Shown in pieces: positions 41,839 to 46,326 of a DNA stretch of 64,000 bases. The notes beneath the pieces were generated by a model. The model was not told where the DNA came from, did no database searches, and saw only the letters and a list, made by a program, of their open reading frames with translations. The DNA comes from Poriferisphaera corsica (lineage in GTDB: Bacteria > Planctomycetota > Phycisphaerae > Phycisphaerales > Phycisphaeraceae). A program made the position numbers and the translations under genes. Position 1 is the first letter of the stretch; each line of letters begins with the position of its first letter. Location of the stretch: assembly GCF_007747445.1 (NCBI RefSeq), contig NZ_CP036425.1, positions 992,001-1,056,000 on the forward strand. Direction: 5' to 3'.

Positions 41839-41872
41839 AAAGCCCATAGGTCCAGCGCCTATGGGCTTTTTT
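41839..41872 (+). terminator. terminator of gltA
   Basis: A perfect 12-bp stem AAAGCCCATAGG/CCTATGGGCTTT (41839-41850 with 41858-41869) with a 7-nt loop and following T run. Confidence 0.9.
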
Positions 41873-42034
41873 CTGCTGGGCATCATCTTTCCGCCCTTCT
41901 TCTGACTTGATTCATATTTGTACGGAATATCACGTGGTTTTAAGACGTTTGCGTATTGTCCGTATAACGTCTAGCCAACGATATTCGGATTTATGCGATC
42001 AGTATGTTTCATACATAGATTCAATACGGAGTGA

Positions 42035-44746
42035 ATGATGGTCACGACTGCATCTGGGAAAAAGCGAGGATGGTTTGGCAGATATGTCCATTGGTTGCAC
42101 ACCAAGTGGCCGGCCGGTACCGTCGAAAAACTCCCAGATGTTGCGCCTGATGGCACAACCAATGTCAACGGCCTTTATGTTGTCGGTGATCTCACCGGCG
42201 TACCGCTGCTCAAATTCTCTGCCGACACCGGCGCAAAATCTGTCAAGAACATACTCGCTGATCCTTCATTTCAAAAACGAACACAGAACGATAACGTCAT
42301 CGATGTCCTCATCATCGGTGGCGGAGTCTCAGGCTTTGCCGCCGCGATTGAAGCTAAAAAAGCTGGTCTTACCTATAAACTTCTTGAAGCTTCTGAAGCT
42401 TTTTCGACCATCGTTAACTTTCCCAAAGCCAAGCCGATTTTTACCTATCCCACGGATATGACCCCCGCCGGTGATCTTCAATTTCACGAGAAATCTGCGA
42501 TAAAAGAAGGACTTCTGGAAGATCTAAACGAACAAATCACCGCGCATAATATTGAGCCTACCTATGCTCGTGTCGAATTCGTCAAAAAAATTCGTGGTGG
42601 AATCTTCGAAGCAAAAATGGCGAAAAGCAATGTGACGCACAAAGAGCCCATGGCTGCTGATATCCCCGATATGCTCAAAGCGCATCGCGTCATTGTCGGC
42701 ATCGGGCGTTCAGGTAATTTTCGCAAACTCGGTGCGAAAGGTGAAGACCTCGATAAAGTTTATAACCGTCTTTTCGATCCCAAGGATTTTACAGGCAAAG
42801 ATGTCGTTGTTGTTGGCGGCGGTGACTCCGCACTTGAAGCAGCCATCGCGCTATCGACCAACGGCGCCAATGTCTCCGTCAGTTATCGTAAGCCAGAATT
42901 TAGTCGTCCTAAGCCCGAGAATGTTGATAAGCTTAATATGCTTGCGTCTAATCCATCATTAGACGTTTCCATTGAACATCCCACGAGTGAGCGTGTGACC
43001 ACTGCTTCTGGCTCCTTTATGCGAGAAGATCAAGTCAAGGAAACATGCACACATTGCGGCGCATCACTCGTTGGTCAACCTACCGAAGGCAACTGCCCCG
43101 ATTGCGGCCACCATTACCGTAAATTTGAGGGTGCATTGCAACTCATGATGGCCTCTAAGGTCAAAGAAGTCACCGAGGATTCGATCACGATTACCAACAG
43201 CGAAGGACAAGACGAGTCCTTTCATAACGATGCTGTTTTTAGCATGATTGGCCGTGAGCCACCACTTGATTTTTTTCGCCGCTCGAATGTGCGCATCCGA
43301 GGTGAATGGTCAGGCAAATTCATTACCGTTATGATTTTTTTCATTCTTTTTTGCTTTTGGCTTTATCACTGGAAAGGTGAAAAAGCGATCCCTGCCATCG
43401 GTATGCTTCAGAACGTCGGCCAGAAAGTTGAATCCGTCACCGGACTCAACTTCATTGATGAAATCCTGTCCCCCGATCCCGACTCTATACTCAATCGTTG
43501 GTTCGGTAGTATGGAATCCATGATGGGTGATACCATGGGTTCTGTTATGGAAGGCATGAAAGATCAACGCGGAACTTTTGGCGTTGTTCTTACTTCAGCT
43601 GGCGCGCCTGCTTTCTACTACACACTTGCGTACTCGATCATCGTTGTCACTTTTGGTATCAGAAGAATCAGGCGAAGACGCACGCCTTACATTAAGACGC
43701 AAACCATTTCGCTGATGCTCATACAAACCATACCGTTGTTTATTCTCCCAGAGCTTGTTCTTCCCATCCTTGGTTACCACGGCTTCTTTGACTCTGGCGC
43801 TTCAGCATGGATCGCCGATCAAATCTTTCCGATAGTTGAATACGGTCACGGCCGCGAGTATTGGCGATCTTACGGATTCATCCTTGCCTGGCCACTCTTC
43901 GTTTATAACTGGTTTACGAATGAACCACTTTACGCTTGGCTGCTCATTGGTTTCCTTCAAACTTTTGTGATTATTCCGCTTCTCATCTATCGCTTTGGTA
44001 AAGGCGCGTACTGTGGCTGGATTTGCTCATGCGGCGCTCTCGCTGAAACTCTCGGCGATATGCAGCGTCATAAAATGCCACACGGGCCTAAATGGAATCG
44101 ACTCAACATGGTTGGGCAATTCATCCTCTGGATTGCCCTTTTCATGCTTTTGCTTCGAATCATTGGTTGGATTTTTCCCAGCTCCTTTATTGGTGATCTT
44201 TTCTACGTCATGTTCACCGGTAAAGTCCACTATGAATCGTGGCCTTTTTTCCTCAAACCAATCGGTCTTCTCCTTCAGGTCTTTAACTATCAATGGTTCG
44301 TCGACCTGCTGCTTGCCGGTGTATTAGGCTATGGCCTCTACTTCATGTATTCCGGTCGTATGTGGTGCCGTTTTGCCTGCCCGCTTGCCGCGCTCATGCA
44401 CATCTACGCTCGGTTTACTCAATTCCGCATCCTTTCCGACAAAAAGAAATGTATCTCTTGCAACGTTTGTACTTCCGTCTGTCATCAAGGCATCGACATT
44501 ATGAATTTTGCCAATAAAGGCCTTCCTATGGAAGATCCTGAGTGCGTTCGTTGCAGTGCTTGTGTACAAAGTTGTCCGACAGGTGTCCTCACTTTTGGCC
44601 GCATCGATCGACGTACCGGTGTGACCATTGGCAAAGATAAACTCGCCGCCTCGCCCGTTCAGATGGTCGAGATGTCAGTGAACGGCAAAAAAATGCCGAA
44701 ACGTGTTGAAGGACTCATGAATCGCGGTAAGAAAATGGATCAATAA
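42035..44746 (+). CDS. flavin oxidoreductase / zinc-ribbon / NapH-type membrane ferredoxin fusion
   Basis: This 903-residue redox protein is unusual. Residues 1-75 look like the C-terminal FAD/active-site segment of a thioredoxin-reductase-like enzyme (GLYVVGDLTGVPLLKF). The first FAD-binding fold follows (GGGVSG, 95-100), then an NAD(P) fold (GGGDSA, about 260-266). Two CxxC pairs (C338/C341, C354/C357) form a zinc ribbon. Membrane helices start near 430 and continue across 540-790 with NapH-type YCGWICSCG and WCRFACPL. Two 4Fe-4S motifs close it: CISCNVCTSVC (806) and CVRCSACVQSC (837). It could carry electrons from NAD(P)H via flavin and iron-sulfur centres to a membrane or periplasmic acceptor. 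GGAG precedes the ATG. The next lipoprotein gene follows closely. Confidence 0.85.
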   Translation: MMVTTASGKKRGWFGRYVHWLHTKWPAGTVEKLPDVAPDGTTNVNGLYVVGDLTGVPLLKFSADTGAKSVKNILADPSFQKRTQNDNVIDVLIIGGGVSGFAAAIEAKKAGLTYKLLEASEAFSTIVNFPKAKPIFTYPTDMTPAGDLQFHEKSAIKEGLLEDLNEQITAHNIEPTYARVEFVKKIRGGIFEAKMAKSNVTHKEPMAADIPDMLKAHRVIVGIGRSGNFRKLGAKGEDLDKVYNRLFDPKDFTGKDVVVVGGGDSALEAAIALSTNGANVSVSYRKPEFSRPKPENVDKLNMLASNPSLDVSIEHPTSERVTTASGSFMREDQVKETCTHCGASLVGQPTEGNCPDCGHHYRKFEGALQLMMASKVKEVTEDSITITNSEGQDESFHNDAVFSMIGREPPLDFFRRSNVRIRGEWSGKFITVMIFFILFCFWLYHWKGEKAIPAIGMLQNVGQKVESVTGLNFIDEILSPDPDSILNRWFGSMESMMGDTMGSVMEGMKDQRGTFGVVLTSAGAPAFYYTLAYSIIVVTFGIRRIRRRRTPYIKTQTISLMLIQTIPLFILPELVLPILGYHGFFDSGASAWIADQIFPIVEYGHGREYWRSYGFILAWPLFVYNWFTNEPLYAWLLIGFLQTFVIIPLLIYRFGKGAYCGWICSCGALAETLGDMQRHKMPHGPKWNRLNMVGQFILWIALFMLLLRIIGWIFPSSFIGDLFYVMFTGKVHYESWPFFLKPIGLLLQVFNYQWFVDLLLAGVLGYGLYFMYSGRMWCRFACPLAALMHIYARFTQFRILSDKKKCISCNVCTSVCHQGIDIMNFANKGLPMEDPECVRCSACVQSCPTGVLTFGRIDRRTGVTIGKDKLAASPVQMVEMSVNGKKMPKRVEGLMNRGKKMDQ

Positions 44747-44772: not shown

Positions 44773-46326
44773 ATGCAAATCAAACCTATAAAATCAGTCT
44801 TTCTAGCATCATTGATGCTGCTCATCGCATTTACATCCTCCGCATGTAAAAAAGAATCCTCCCCACCTAGTGAAAGCGATATCGCCACCGCTCAAGGTGA
44901 TTCTGCCTCTCAACCACCCAAGCCCGTTCTTCAATATCCAAACGATCGCGGCGATACTGCAACTGTCCCTCAAATGGAATCCGATGATAAGTATAATATC
45001 CAACATACCGAGCCCATAGCCCCACAAGATCAAGATCTCGAGCACAGTGATCAGCAAAAACTACAAGGTCGAACACTTCGCCGACCAAGTATGACTGTTC
45101 CATCTATCAAAGCACAAGTGAATGCAGCAGACACTAGTAGTAACCCTTCATCAAAGTCGGCAGATGAACCATCCGCGCCAACGACAGCTGACTCGCCTGC
45201 TGAGCAAGATGAATCAACAGAATCGCAATCAGAGACTAAAACCGAAGTGAAAGGCGACGAGTCTAAAAATGCTTCCGATGCGATGGATAAAGCTAATACA
45301 CAGTTAGATATGGAAGGTGTACCCAAGCCCATGGGCGAAGATGAAGCAGCCATCGAAGCTCAAGATATGGCAGACTCAGATCCTTACAATAATATCCGTA
45401 CTGATAAAGGTGAAGACGATCGTATGGACATCTCTGAACGTGAGAATGCGATCCGTAATAATGAACCAAGTTCCAAGTCAGCGACATCAGTCATCCCTGA
45501 AAATCCAGAGACTGTCAAAGAACCCGACGATCCTATCAACGCAGAAATGCAGCCAAAGGAACCTGTTGCTCCGCCAGTCAGCCCAATTCTTCCCGAGGCA
45601 ATGCCTGATGGCGAGGAGCGTGGCAAGCAATTGGTTAAAGACATCGAGGAGAACGAGAACTATAAAGGTTGGTACAGTCATCAAGCCATTGAGGGCCGTG
45701 TTGAACTCGTCTGGATGGGAGCCAAAGCCTTCGAAGGTGTTCTGGCTTTCCAGACTAATCTGGGTGCTGCCTGTATAGATCTCGATTCCGGCGAACTTCT
45801 CGTTTACGACGGCAACAGCGCATGGCTTAGCCCAACGAGTAGCGCTTTTAAACGTGCCCGCTTTCATCTCCTTACTTGGCCCTACTTCATCACTGTTGGC
45901 TACAAACTCAGCGACCCCGGTGTCAACATCGAATACCTCGGCGAACAGCTATGGAAAGAAGGCGAATCTTACCCCGCCTTCCGAATGACTTTCGGCCCTA
46001 ATGTCGGTGACACCCCCGACGACTGGTATGTCTTATATGTTGATACAAAACGCAATCTCATCGTTGGTATGAACTACATCGTTACCTACGGGACCACGCT
46101 CGCTGAAGCCGAAAAAGAAGTGCACGCCATTTCCTATGATCGCTATCAACTCATCGAAGGTGTTGATGTACCCTGGCGTATGACTTTTTGGCATTGGGAT
46201 CCCAGCAAAGGCATCACCGACAAGCTTGGCGAACTCAATTTCTCTTCTGCTAAATTCATCACGCCCGGCAAAACCTATTTTCAAAAACCCGAAAACTCAC
46301 GCGAAGATAAAATCCCCAATCAATAA
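44773..46326 (+). CDS. lipoprotein with long acidic linker and LolA-like/DUF-type domain
   Basis: This 517-residue protein begins with a lipoprotein signal (SLMLLIAFTSSAC; lipid Cys at about 25). A long disordered section (26-290) is rich in S, E, D, P and K. From about 290 a folded domain begins (YKGWYSHQAIEGRVELVWMG) with features of a LolA/outer-membrane-lipoprotein-sorting-like beta fold (GELLVYDGNSAWLSP, VDTKRNLIVGMNYIV, WRMTFWHWD). Family assignment is uncertain. The ATG follows GAAGG. It is only 26 nt after the fusion oxidoreductase gene, so the two are probably co-transcribed. Confidence 0.75.
   Translation: MQIKPIKSVFLASLMLLIAFTSSACKKESSPPSESDIATAQGDSASQPPKPVLQYPNDRGDTATVPQMESDDKYNIQHTEPIAPQDQDLEHSDQQKLQGRTLRRPSMTVPSIKAQVNAADTSSNPSSKSADEPSAPTTADSPAEQDESTESQSETKTEVKGDESKNASDAMDKANTQLDMEGVPKPMGEDEAAIEAQDMADSDPYNNIRTDKGEDDRMDISERENAIRNNEPSSKSATSVIPENPETVKEPDDPINAEMQPKEPVAPPVSPILPEAMPDGEERGKQLVKDIEENENYKGWYSHQAIEGRVELVWMGAKAFEGVLAFQTNLGAACIDLDSGELLVYDGNSAWLSPTSSAFKRARFHLLTWPYFITVGYKLSDPGVNIEYLGEQLWKEGESYPAFRMTFGPNVGDTPDDWYVLYVDTKRNLIVGMNYIVTYGTTLAEAEKEVHAISYDRYQLIEGVDVPWRMTFWHWDPSKGITDKLGELNFSSAKFITPGKTYFQKPENSREDKIPNQ

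Follow-up and report, generated by a model that had tools for sequence, protein, structure and literature searches.

Within a 64,000-nucleotide window of the Poriferisphaera corsica genome (contig NZ_CP036425.1, positions 992,001 to 1,056,000 of the forward strand), a single intact open reading frame (ORF) at 42035-44746 on the plus strand encodes, with no internal stop, a 903-residue protein (P0001) that we call type A. Profile comparisons and structural models support the view that its flavin module is a circularly permuted order of the flavin adenine dinucleotide (FAD) domain of thioredoxin reductase (TrxR)-like enzymes, and the same chain continues into an iron-sulphur membrane module of the NapH type. 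Type A is a real and widespread permuted flavoprotein class; its mechanism is supported in outline, and its physiological role can be put as a testable hypothesis. We consider it reasonably likely that electrons pass from NAD(P)H through FAD and two [4Fe-4S] clusters into the NapH/CcoG-type membrane module, with a probable arsenosugar link in many genomes.

One genome per species was scanned with two peptides from the membrane part. Of the 568 matches obtained, 430 encode a relative of one kind or another. The best 80 of the 568 were all full-length relatives, matched from about residue 2-17 to beyond residue 872, and came from records titled Planctomycetota, Latescibacterota, Acidobacteria, Gemmatimonadetes, Verrucomicrobia, Myxococcales, Deltaproteobacteria/Desulfobacterota, Dadabacteria, Chlorobi, Caldithrix and others. 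A further homologue (47.5% identity, coverage 96%) comes from a Pseudoalteromonas plasmid. The 80-row alignment used throughout consists of 79 of these best 80 loci plus the window protein; locus L088 was excluded, its type A gene (L088:5958-10361) being split over two frames in a metagenome-assembled genome (frameshift or error).

Relocation of the FAD-domain segment

Pfam Pyr_redox_3 covers residues 92-296 of type A and the NCBIfam YpdA/Bdr profile (TIGR04018) covers 90-290, with 119 bits against a curated cut-off of 339.9. Two proteins, each from a different related class, matched the YpdA profile up to position 265 and 263 of 316, respectively, and comparison with PDB sequences matched type A to residues 4-214 and 217-265 only of YpdA 7a7b. 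Two AlphaFold models, one of the whole chain (mean predicted local distance difference test score 81) and one of residues 1-432 (score 88), were compared with known structures. The whole-chain model aligned residues 86-423 with YpdA 1-266 of 7a7b (Z 19.6, root-mean-square deviation 11.5), and the shorter model, a structure prediction of the part that an earlier note on this DNA had named as a check, aligned residues 86-425 with YpdA 1-268 of 323 and nothing beyond (Z 20.4, deviation 6.4, 261 residues aligned). Most of the TrxR and ferredoxin/flavodoxin-NADP+ reductase (FNR) structures matched by this model likewise ended at chain residue 251 to 278. The structure matches listed concern the flavin part; in the whole-chain search, two of 50 extended to model residue 810.

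A strand and helix of NVPGLYVAGD type are left over in the YpdA, TrxR and FNR chains, and both profiles and models support a counterpart for them at the type A N-terminus (strand 47-51, helix 59-75), where residues 49-67, VVGDLTGVPLLKFSADTGA, stand N-terminal of the first glycine motif (95-100). When the N-terminal 86 alignment columns were compared by hhalign with YpdA, 33-52 fell on columns 290-310 (score 35.4, E 5e-5, probability 67%), and the YpdA core alignment stops at column 290. Against TrxR, 38-54 fell on columns 280-296 (score 31.6, E 2e-4 counted for one comparison, probability 47%), and the core alignment stops at column 268, some 12 columns short of the segment match. Helix 59-75 lies outside both alignments. 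Column shuffles of the segment matched the real score in 0 of 100 trials for each family, reaching at most 28.9 for YpdA and 25.5 for TrxR. Rotating the alignment lifted the whole-profile score from 264.4 to 288.2 for YpdA (shuffled maximum 274.0) and from 144.0 to 157.8 for TrxR (shuffled maximum 149.0), yet the printed alignment of the rotated YpdA profile still stopped at column 291. The segment occupies the identical place in all 80 rows, and in 76 of them its best local match to a TrxR hidden Markov model (HMM) is positions 270-299 of 327, with weak scores (median 1.2 bits against a shuffled median of -2.9 and a shuffled maximum of 4.5).

A second architecture bears on the same question. 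The ferredoxin-first class (L043:7466-9766, L045:7085-9361, L046:6802-9171, L047:6607-8919, L044, which is truncated, and L022:9617-10966, a shorter form from Emticicia) has an N-terminal ferredoxin, then the permuted flavin module and, in the long forms, a membrane part. In six such proteins the segment between the ferredoxin and the FAD motif aligned with the type A N-terminus (score 58.4, probability 97%, shuffled maximum 21.7), with the YpdA C-terminus (32.4, 53%, shuffled maximum 20.3) and with the TrxR C-terminus (29.3, 35%, shuffled maximum 21.7).

Several results weigh against a permutation. The hhalign probabilities of the type A segment rise no higher than the 67% and 47% given above. 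Rotation of single-sequence HMMs brought gains in two of 80 rows for YpdA and eight of 80 for TrxR, no better than shuffles, with shuffled controls gaining in 59 of 800 cases for TrxR and reaching +7.2 and +12.7 bits. The N-terminus alone found no significant match among PDB sequences, the best being the AhpF C-terminus at E 0.46. Single-sequence HMM scoring was uninformative here; the decisive comparison was the one between profiles. We regard the permuted order as supported because the profile-profile alignments with their shuffle controls, the two models and the second architecture, with the segment placed after a ferredoxin, all point to it; the suggestion of the earlier note that a TrxR-type C-terminal segment stands at the N-terminus is thereby borne out. 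Among the papers listed in full-text searches of an open-access library, some of them aimed at permutation, none was seen to describe a TrxR/FNR-type flavoprotein with circular permutation; subscription literature lies mostly outside that library.

Conserved residues and gene neighbourhood

Common to all 80 rows are Y17, W20-H22, the GD motif, R285, R291 and 13 cysteines, every one of the latter in the membrane/ferredoxin part; the flavin module has no invariant cysteine, and residues 1-430 hold no recurrent CxxC pair among the 80 rows. Disulfide chemistry by the flavin module is unlikely for these two reasons, judged from the alignment; telling against that judgement, position 276 is Cys in 54 of the 80 rows (Asn in the window protein) and position 253 in 29. 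The CxxC-CxxC ribbon said in the earlier note to interrupt the second fold is indeed present in the window protein (C338-x2-C341...C354-x2-C357, inside the NAD(P) domain) but not family-wide. The region is 53 residues long with CxxC in five rows, 22-28 in most others and 0-5 in eight, so that by sequence comparison the ribbon is a lineage insert, incidental to the family, and was rejected as a general functional part.

Divergent copies of the same fusion (25-26% identity) precede the main copy, immediately or almost so, in three loci (L060:4926-7280, L069:1006-3372, L114:1785-4079), with a fragment of one upstream of the main gene in L058. The frame L048:5735-8569 is canonical YpdA-like, its ORF inflated by some 595 N-terminal residues that resemble a non-coding frame.

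Table 1. Features of the type A gene and its surroundings in the window (residue numbers refer to the encoded protein).
Feature	Position	Strand	Basis
Terminator-like hairpin downstream of the citrate synthase gene, setting the type A unit apart	41839..41869	+	13-bp stem and T run
GGAG, 3 nt upstream of the first ATG and 6 nt upstream of the second (residue 2)	42028..42031	+	Sequence
Type A, putative permuted flavoprotein/NapH-type Fe-S membrane protein, 903 aa	42035..44746	+	ORF, family profiles and model
N-terminal helix, residues 13-23, with invariant Y17, W20, L21, H22	42071..42103	+	Model helix; 80/80 rows
Predicted relocated C-terminal FAD-domain segment, residues 33-75 (TNVxGLYVVGD strand and helix)	42131..42259	+	hhalign; model strand 47-51, helix 59-75
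FAD Rossmann part, residues 88-250 (predicted)	42296..42784	+	Pfam Pyr_redox_3 92-296; model on YpdA
NAD(P)-binding domain, residues 251-424 (predicted)	42785..43306	+	Second glycine motif 261-266; R285 and R291 in 80/80 rows; YpdA alignment ends at 268
CxxC-CxxC ribbon, residues 338-357, within the 53-residue stretch 312-364	43046..43105	+	5/80 rows
Membrane module, about six hydrophobic segments, C660-x3-C664-S-C666 and C778-x3-C782-P	43307..44680	+	Five Cys in 80/80 rows; hydropathy
Two 4Fe-4S motifs, C806/809/812/816 and C837/840/843/847	44450..44575	+	Fer4_10 799-848; 80/80 rows
P0002, lipoprotein-like: N-terminal signal (SSAC, by eye), then a long linker rich in acidic residues and Pro, then C-terminal domain 284-515	44773..46326	+	ORF, 26 nt downstream of type A
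Conserved C-terminal domain of P0002, weakly DUF6503-like	45622..46317	+	PF20113 matches of relatives

Gene content was compared in a set of 61 relatives' genomes, 20 of which count as carriers by a P0001 match at E below 1e-90; G010 and G014 are truncated at contig ends, and the count leaves out the ferredoxin-first class as well as divergent copies (G018 and G035). The radical S-adenosylmethionine (SAM) enzyme ArsS is present in 19 of the 20 carriers against 10 of 41 non-carriers (P = 1e-7) and, within one family at 90% completeness, in 14 of 15 against three of 11 (P = 8e-4). In a phylum sample, whose carriers were detected with the membrane module alone, the counts are 20 of 27 against 62 of 219 (P = 5e-6). 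In the phylum of an Acidobacteria metagenome-assembled genome (G313), chosen as the centre in the knowledge that both genes are present, ArsS occurs in five of nine carriers against 26 of 190 (P = 0.005), or in four of eight carriers without the centre (P = 0.02); four candidates per genome were scored there, and three of the nine carriers reached the threshold with the membrane part alone. These Fisher tests ignore phylogeny, and the sets overlap, several loci (L) being the same genomes as members of the genome sets (G), e.g. L061 and G001. The association between type A and ArsS in the sampled genomes is clear but not exclusive.

The two genes are also neighbours in places. In L168 a DUF547 gene, type A, ArsM, ArsS and a GT87/GT2/TIGR04282 fusion follow one another, all on the same strand and separated by 27, 75, 6 and 15 nt (measured from first-start ORFs). 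Type A lies with both ArsM and ArsS in L168, L169 and L119 (ArsM under and ArsS over curated cut-offs) and near ArsS in L057 and L167 as well as in these three; ArsS is within about 6 kb in four genomes of one genus (G101, G140, G254, G275) and about 1.3 kb away in G469. TIGR04282 and TIGR04169 are over cut-off in L078, and genes at the Pseudoalteromonas plasmid locus match TIGR04282/04283 under cut-off. In the synthesis of oxo-arsenosugars, arsenic is adenosylated by a radical SAM enzyme, for which a reference titled on ArsS is cited (PMC12159101).

Between ArsS and type A in L167 stands a RibB-like gene (riboflavin synthesis, by eye; L167:9222-10451). Members of the DUF547 family occur within two genes of type A in 11 of the 80 loci (tested against Pfam in L130 and L032, the latter being the record of L075), and glutamate dehydrogenase, aldehyde dehydrogenase and CoA-ligase neighbours each in at most eight. 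A DUF3179-type neighbour is found in eight loci (L076:6452-7963, the one Pfam-tested, L068, L077, L081, L085, L093, L118 and L120); all eight genomes are without ArsS, and this neighbour perhaps marks a second functional context.

A number of observations count against an arsenosugar role for type A. We took as distant carriers the 43 of the 80 loci without Planctomycetota or Phycisphaerae in the record title (four are titled 'bacterium' and one Uabimicrobium). ArsS is found in 24 of them, one under cut-off, and is missing from 19, among them all five Gemmatimonadetes metagenome-assembled genomes and all eight genomes with the DUF3179-type neighbour; a 44th, the plasmid record W01, has no match. 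ArsS cannot therefore be the sole context. The genome of the window itself has ArsS and an arsenite methyltransferase, both unlinked to the type A gene. A canonical YpdA-like gene taken as a control is likewise enriched, in 12 of 20 carriers against eight of 41 (P = 0.002; within the family P = 0.25). COX1 was tried as a second control and dropped as uninformative, being present in 59 of the 61 genomes.

Downstream of type A, the simplest reading is a two-gene unit with the lipoprotein gene P0002, the next long ORF beginning 395 nt further on. A genome of the same genus (G001) has both genes in identical order. The hairpin upstream is weak evidence when taken alone (the region has nine terminator-like hairpins, its shuffled versions 5.0 +/- 2.0). 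No Pfam family matches P0002 itself; its relatives in L033 and L119 match PF20113 at E 4.6e-4 and 7.6e-4, under the gathering score. Relatives of its C-terminal domain (E<1e-40, a threshold set after a gap was seen in the list) occur in 14 of the 20 carriers and none of the 41 other genomes, adjoining the flavoprotein gene in seven and lying elsewhere only in the other seven; relaxing the threshold to E 1e-4 gives 16 of 20 and three of 41. This genome-wide co-occurrence, which had been proposed as a check, supports the suggestion of a partner lipoprotein, unlinked copies included. A function shared with type A is the better backed because co-occurrence without linkage outweighs adjacency alone, though the genomes are related.

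Electron path and competing explanations

The membrane module scores 37.6 bits with Pfam Fer4_5, over the cut-off of 22, and residues 634-854 score 60 bits with the NapH profile TIGR02163, under its curated cut-off of 213.05. C778-x3-C782-P and the eight cluster cysteines are present in all 80 rows, and the first motif is C660-x3-C664-S rather than CX3CP. With RRIRRRR between the second and third hydrophobic segments, the hydropathy topology (windows merged by eye) would place the flavin module and the 4Fe-4S clusters in the cytoplasm.

On this anatomy we propose that a permuted relative of YpdA and the TrxR-like ferredoxin reductases, facing the cytoplasm, would oxidise NAD(P)H, and that single electrons would go from the flavin through the two C-terminal [4Fe-4S] clusters into the membrane module, feeding membrane or extracytoplasmic chemistry. 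With the permutation the chain would end in the NAD(P) domain instead of the FAD domain and could thus lead directly into the membrane helices. In many genomes type A would probably be tied to arsenosugar (arsenolipid) synthesis by ArsM and ArsS, its partners being the DUF6503-like lipoprotein and the DUF547 proteins. The earlier note had envisaged an NAD(P)H-to-membrane conduit, and the NAD(P) fold, the lack of an invariant flavin-module Cys or recurrent CxxC pair, the two 4Fe-4S motifs and the CX3C-type module fit such a conduit; FAD and NAD(P)H binding, the direction of flow, the acceptor and the arsenosugar role are inferred.

Each part of type A has known likenesses. It has the FAD and NAD(P) folds in common with YpdA/Bdr (7a7b, 7a76) but does not keep the collinear FAD-NAD-FAD chain order, the last 55 or so residues of YpdA having an N-terminal counterpart in type A, which is moreover fused to a membrane Fe-S module. 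No recurrent counterpart of the NAD(P)-domain CxxC redox pair of TrxR was found in the 80 rows, the ribbon cysteines being confined to five of them. TrxR-like FNRs (3ab1, 3lzw, 6gar; Z 16.5-16.6) share the fold without a dithiol pair and, as we read type A, the use of one-electron carriers; type A differs from them in being permuted and membrane-bound with the ferredoxin covalently attached. Membrane helices with CX3C motifs (in type A the second alone is followed by P) and then two C-terminal 4Fe-4S motifs are common to type A and the NapH/MauN, NosR and CcoG families, which, unlike type A, are not known to contain a pyridine-nucleotide flavin module. PRK12771/GltD-like proteins, a profile match of the ferredoxin-first class, also join a flavin module and a ferredoxin in a single chain, but at the opposite end: ferredoxin positions 512-565 of 566 match residues 70-123 of the ferredoxin-first protein. 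NosR and RdhC carry a covalent flavin mononucleotide domain instead, and changes in CX3CP motifs impair NapH and NosR function (PMC5928378).

Electrons might instead flow in reverse, the NapH-like membrane part oxidising quinol and the flavin module reducing NAD(P)+ or another cytoplasmic acceptor. The membrane segments of NapH are described as a proposed quinol-oxidising domain (PMC5928378), and the predicted cytoplasmic position of both clusters and flavin would suit such a path. Transfer from quinol to NAD(P)+ is, however, uphill unless coupled (no search for coupling motifs was made), and the sister ferredoxin-first class adjoins multihaem cytochromes: such genes, with 20 to 37 CxxCH each, lie downstream in L043, L045, L046 and L047, i.e. 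in all four loci with downstream sequence. We rate this direction as improbable. In the same class, two cytochrome c3 family genes stand beside the Emticicia gene, the membrane part of the long forms is DUF4405/ferric-reductase-like (under Pfam cut-offs, L043 tested), and the second cluster motif reads by eye as CxxHxxCxxxCP, with His where Cys is usual.

A metal or metalloid reductase like CcoG, itself a copper reductase, would have a metal ion or an arsenical as its electron acceptor at the membrane. The Fer4_5/4Fe-4S membrane module and the ArsM/ArsS neighbourhood of some genomes are in keeping with this, but a separate 502-residue Fer4_5 frame about 2.4 kb after a COX1 gene in the window's genome is a likelier CcoG, and ArsS is missing from the 19 distant carriers above; we give this explanation the same small chance as reverse flow.

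Far less probable is a membrane-anchored disulfide reductase of the bacillithiol (YpdA/Bdr) type, for all that YpdA/Bdr is the top profile and the top structural match. The cysteine of the GGGPCG motif, seen in both aligned PDB chains and catalytic in YpdA/Bdr, is replaced in type A (position 99 is S in 70, A in nine and G in one of the 80 rows), no flavin-module cysteine is invariant, and the YpdA profile score is far below its cut-off (119 against 340). An assembly join of two genes, considered in the earlier note and suggested by the odd domain order, is excluded for practical purposes by 79 single-frame full-length homologues in other records, among which are the complete genomes CP066225.1 and CP087563.1.

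A broader interpretation, which we advance tentatively and think the less probable side of an uneven bet, is that permuted two-dinucleotide-fold flavoproteins form a phylum-crossing superfamily that plugs into various membrane electron conduits as the entry point for NAD(P)H, with type A as the missing membrane redox component of arsenosugar/arsenolipid synthesis (through arsenical reduction or by feeding the radical SAM enzyme) and the DUF6503-like lipoprotein as its exported partner. Type A may be an overlooked part of arsenic-sugar chemistry. It would show how a soluble reductase can be re-wired into membrane chains, and it offers a testable candidate for still unassigned steps, redox or membrane, near arsenosugar lipid synthesis.

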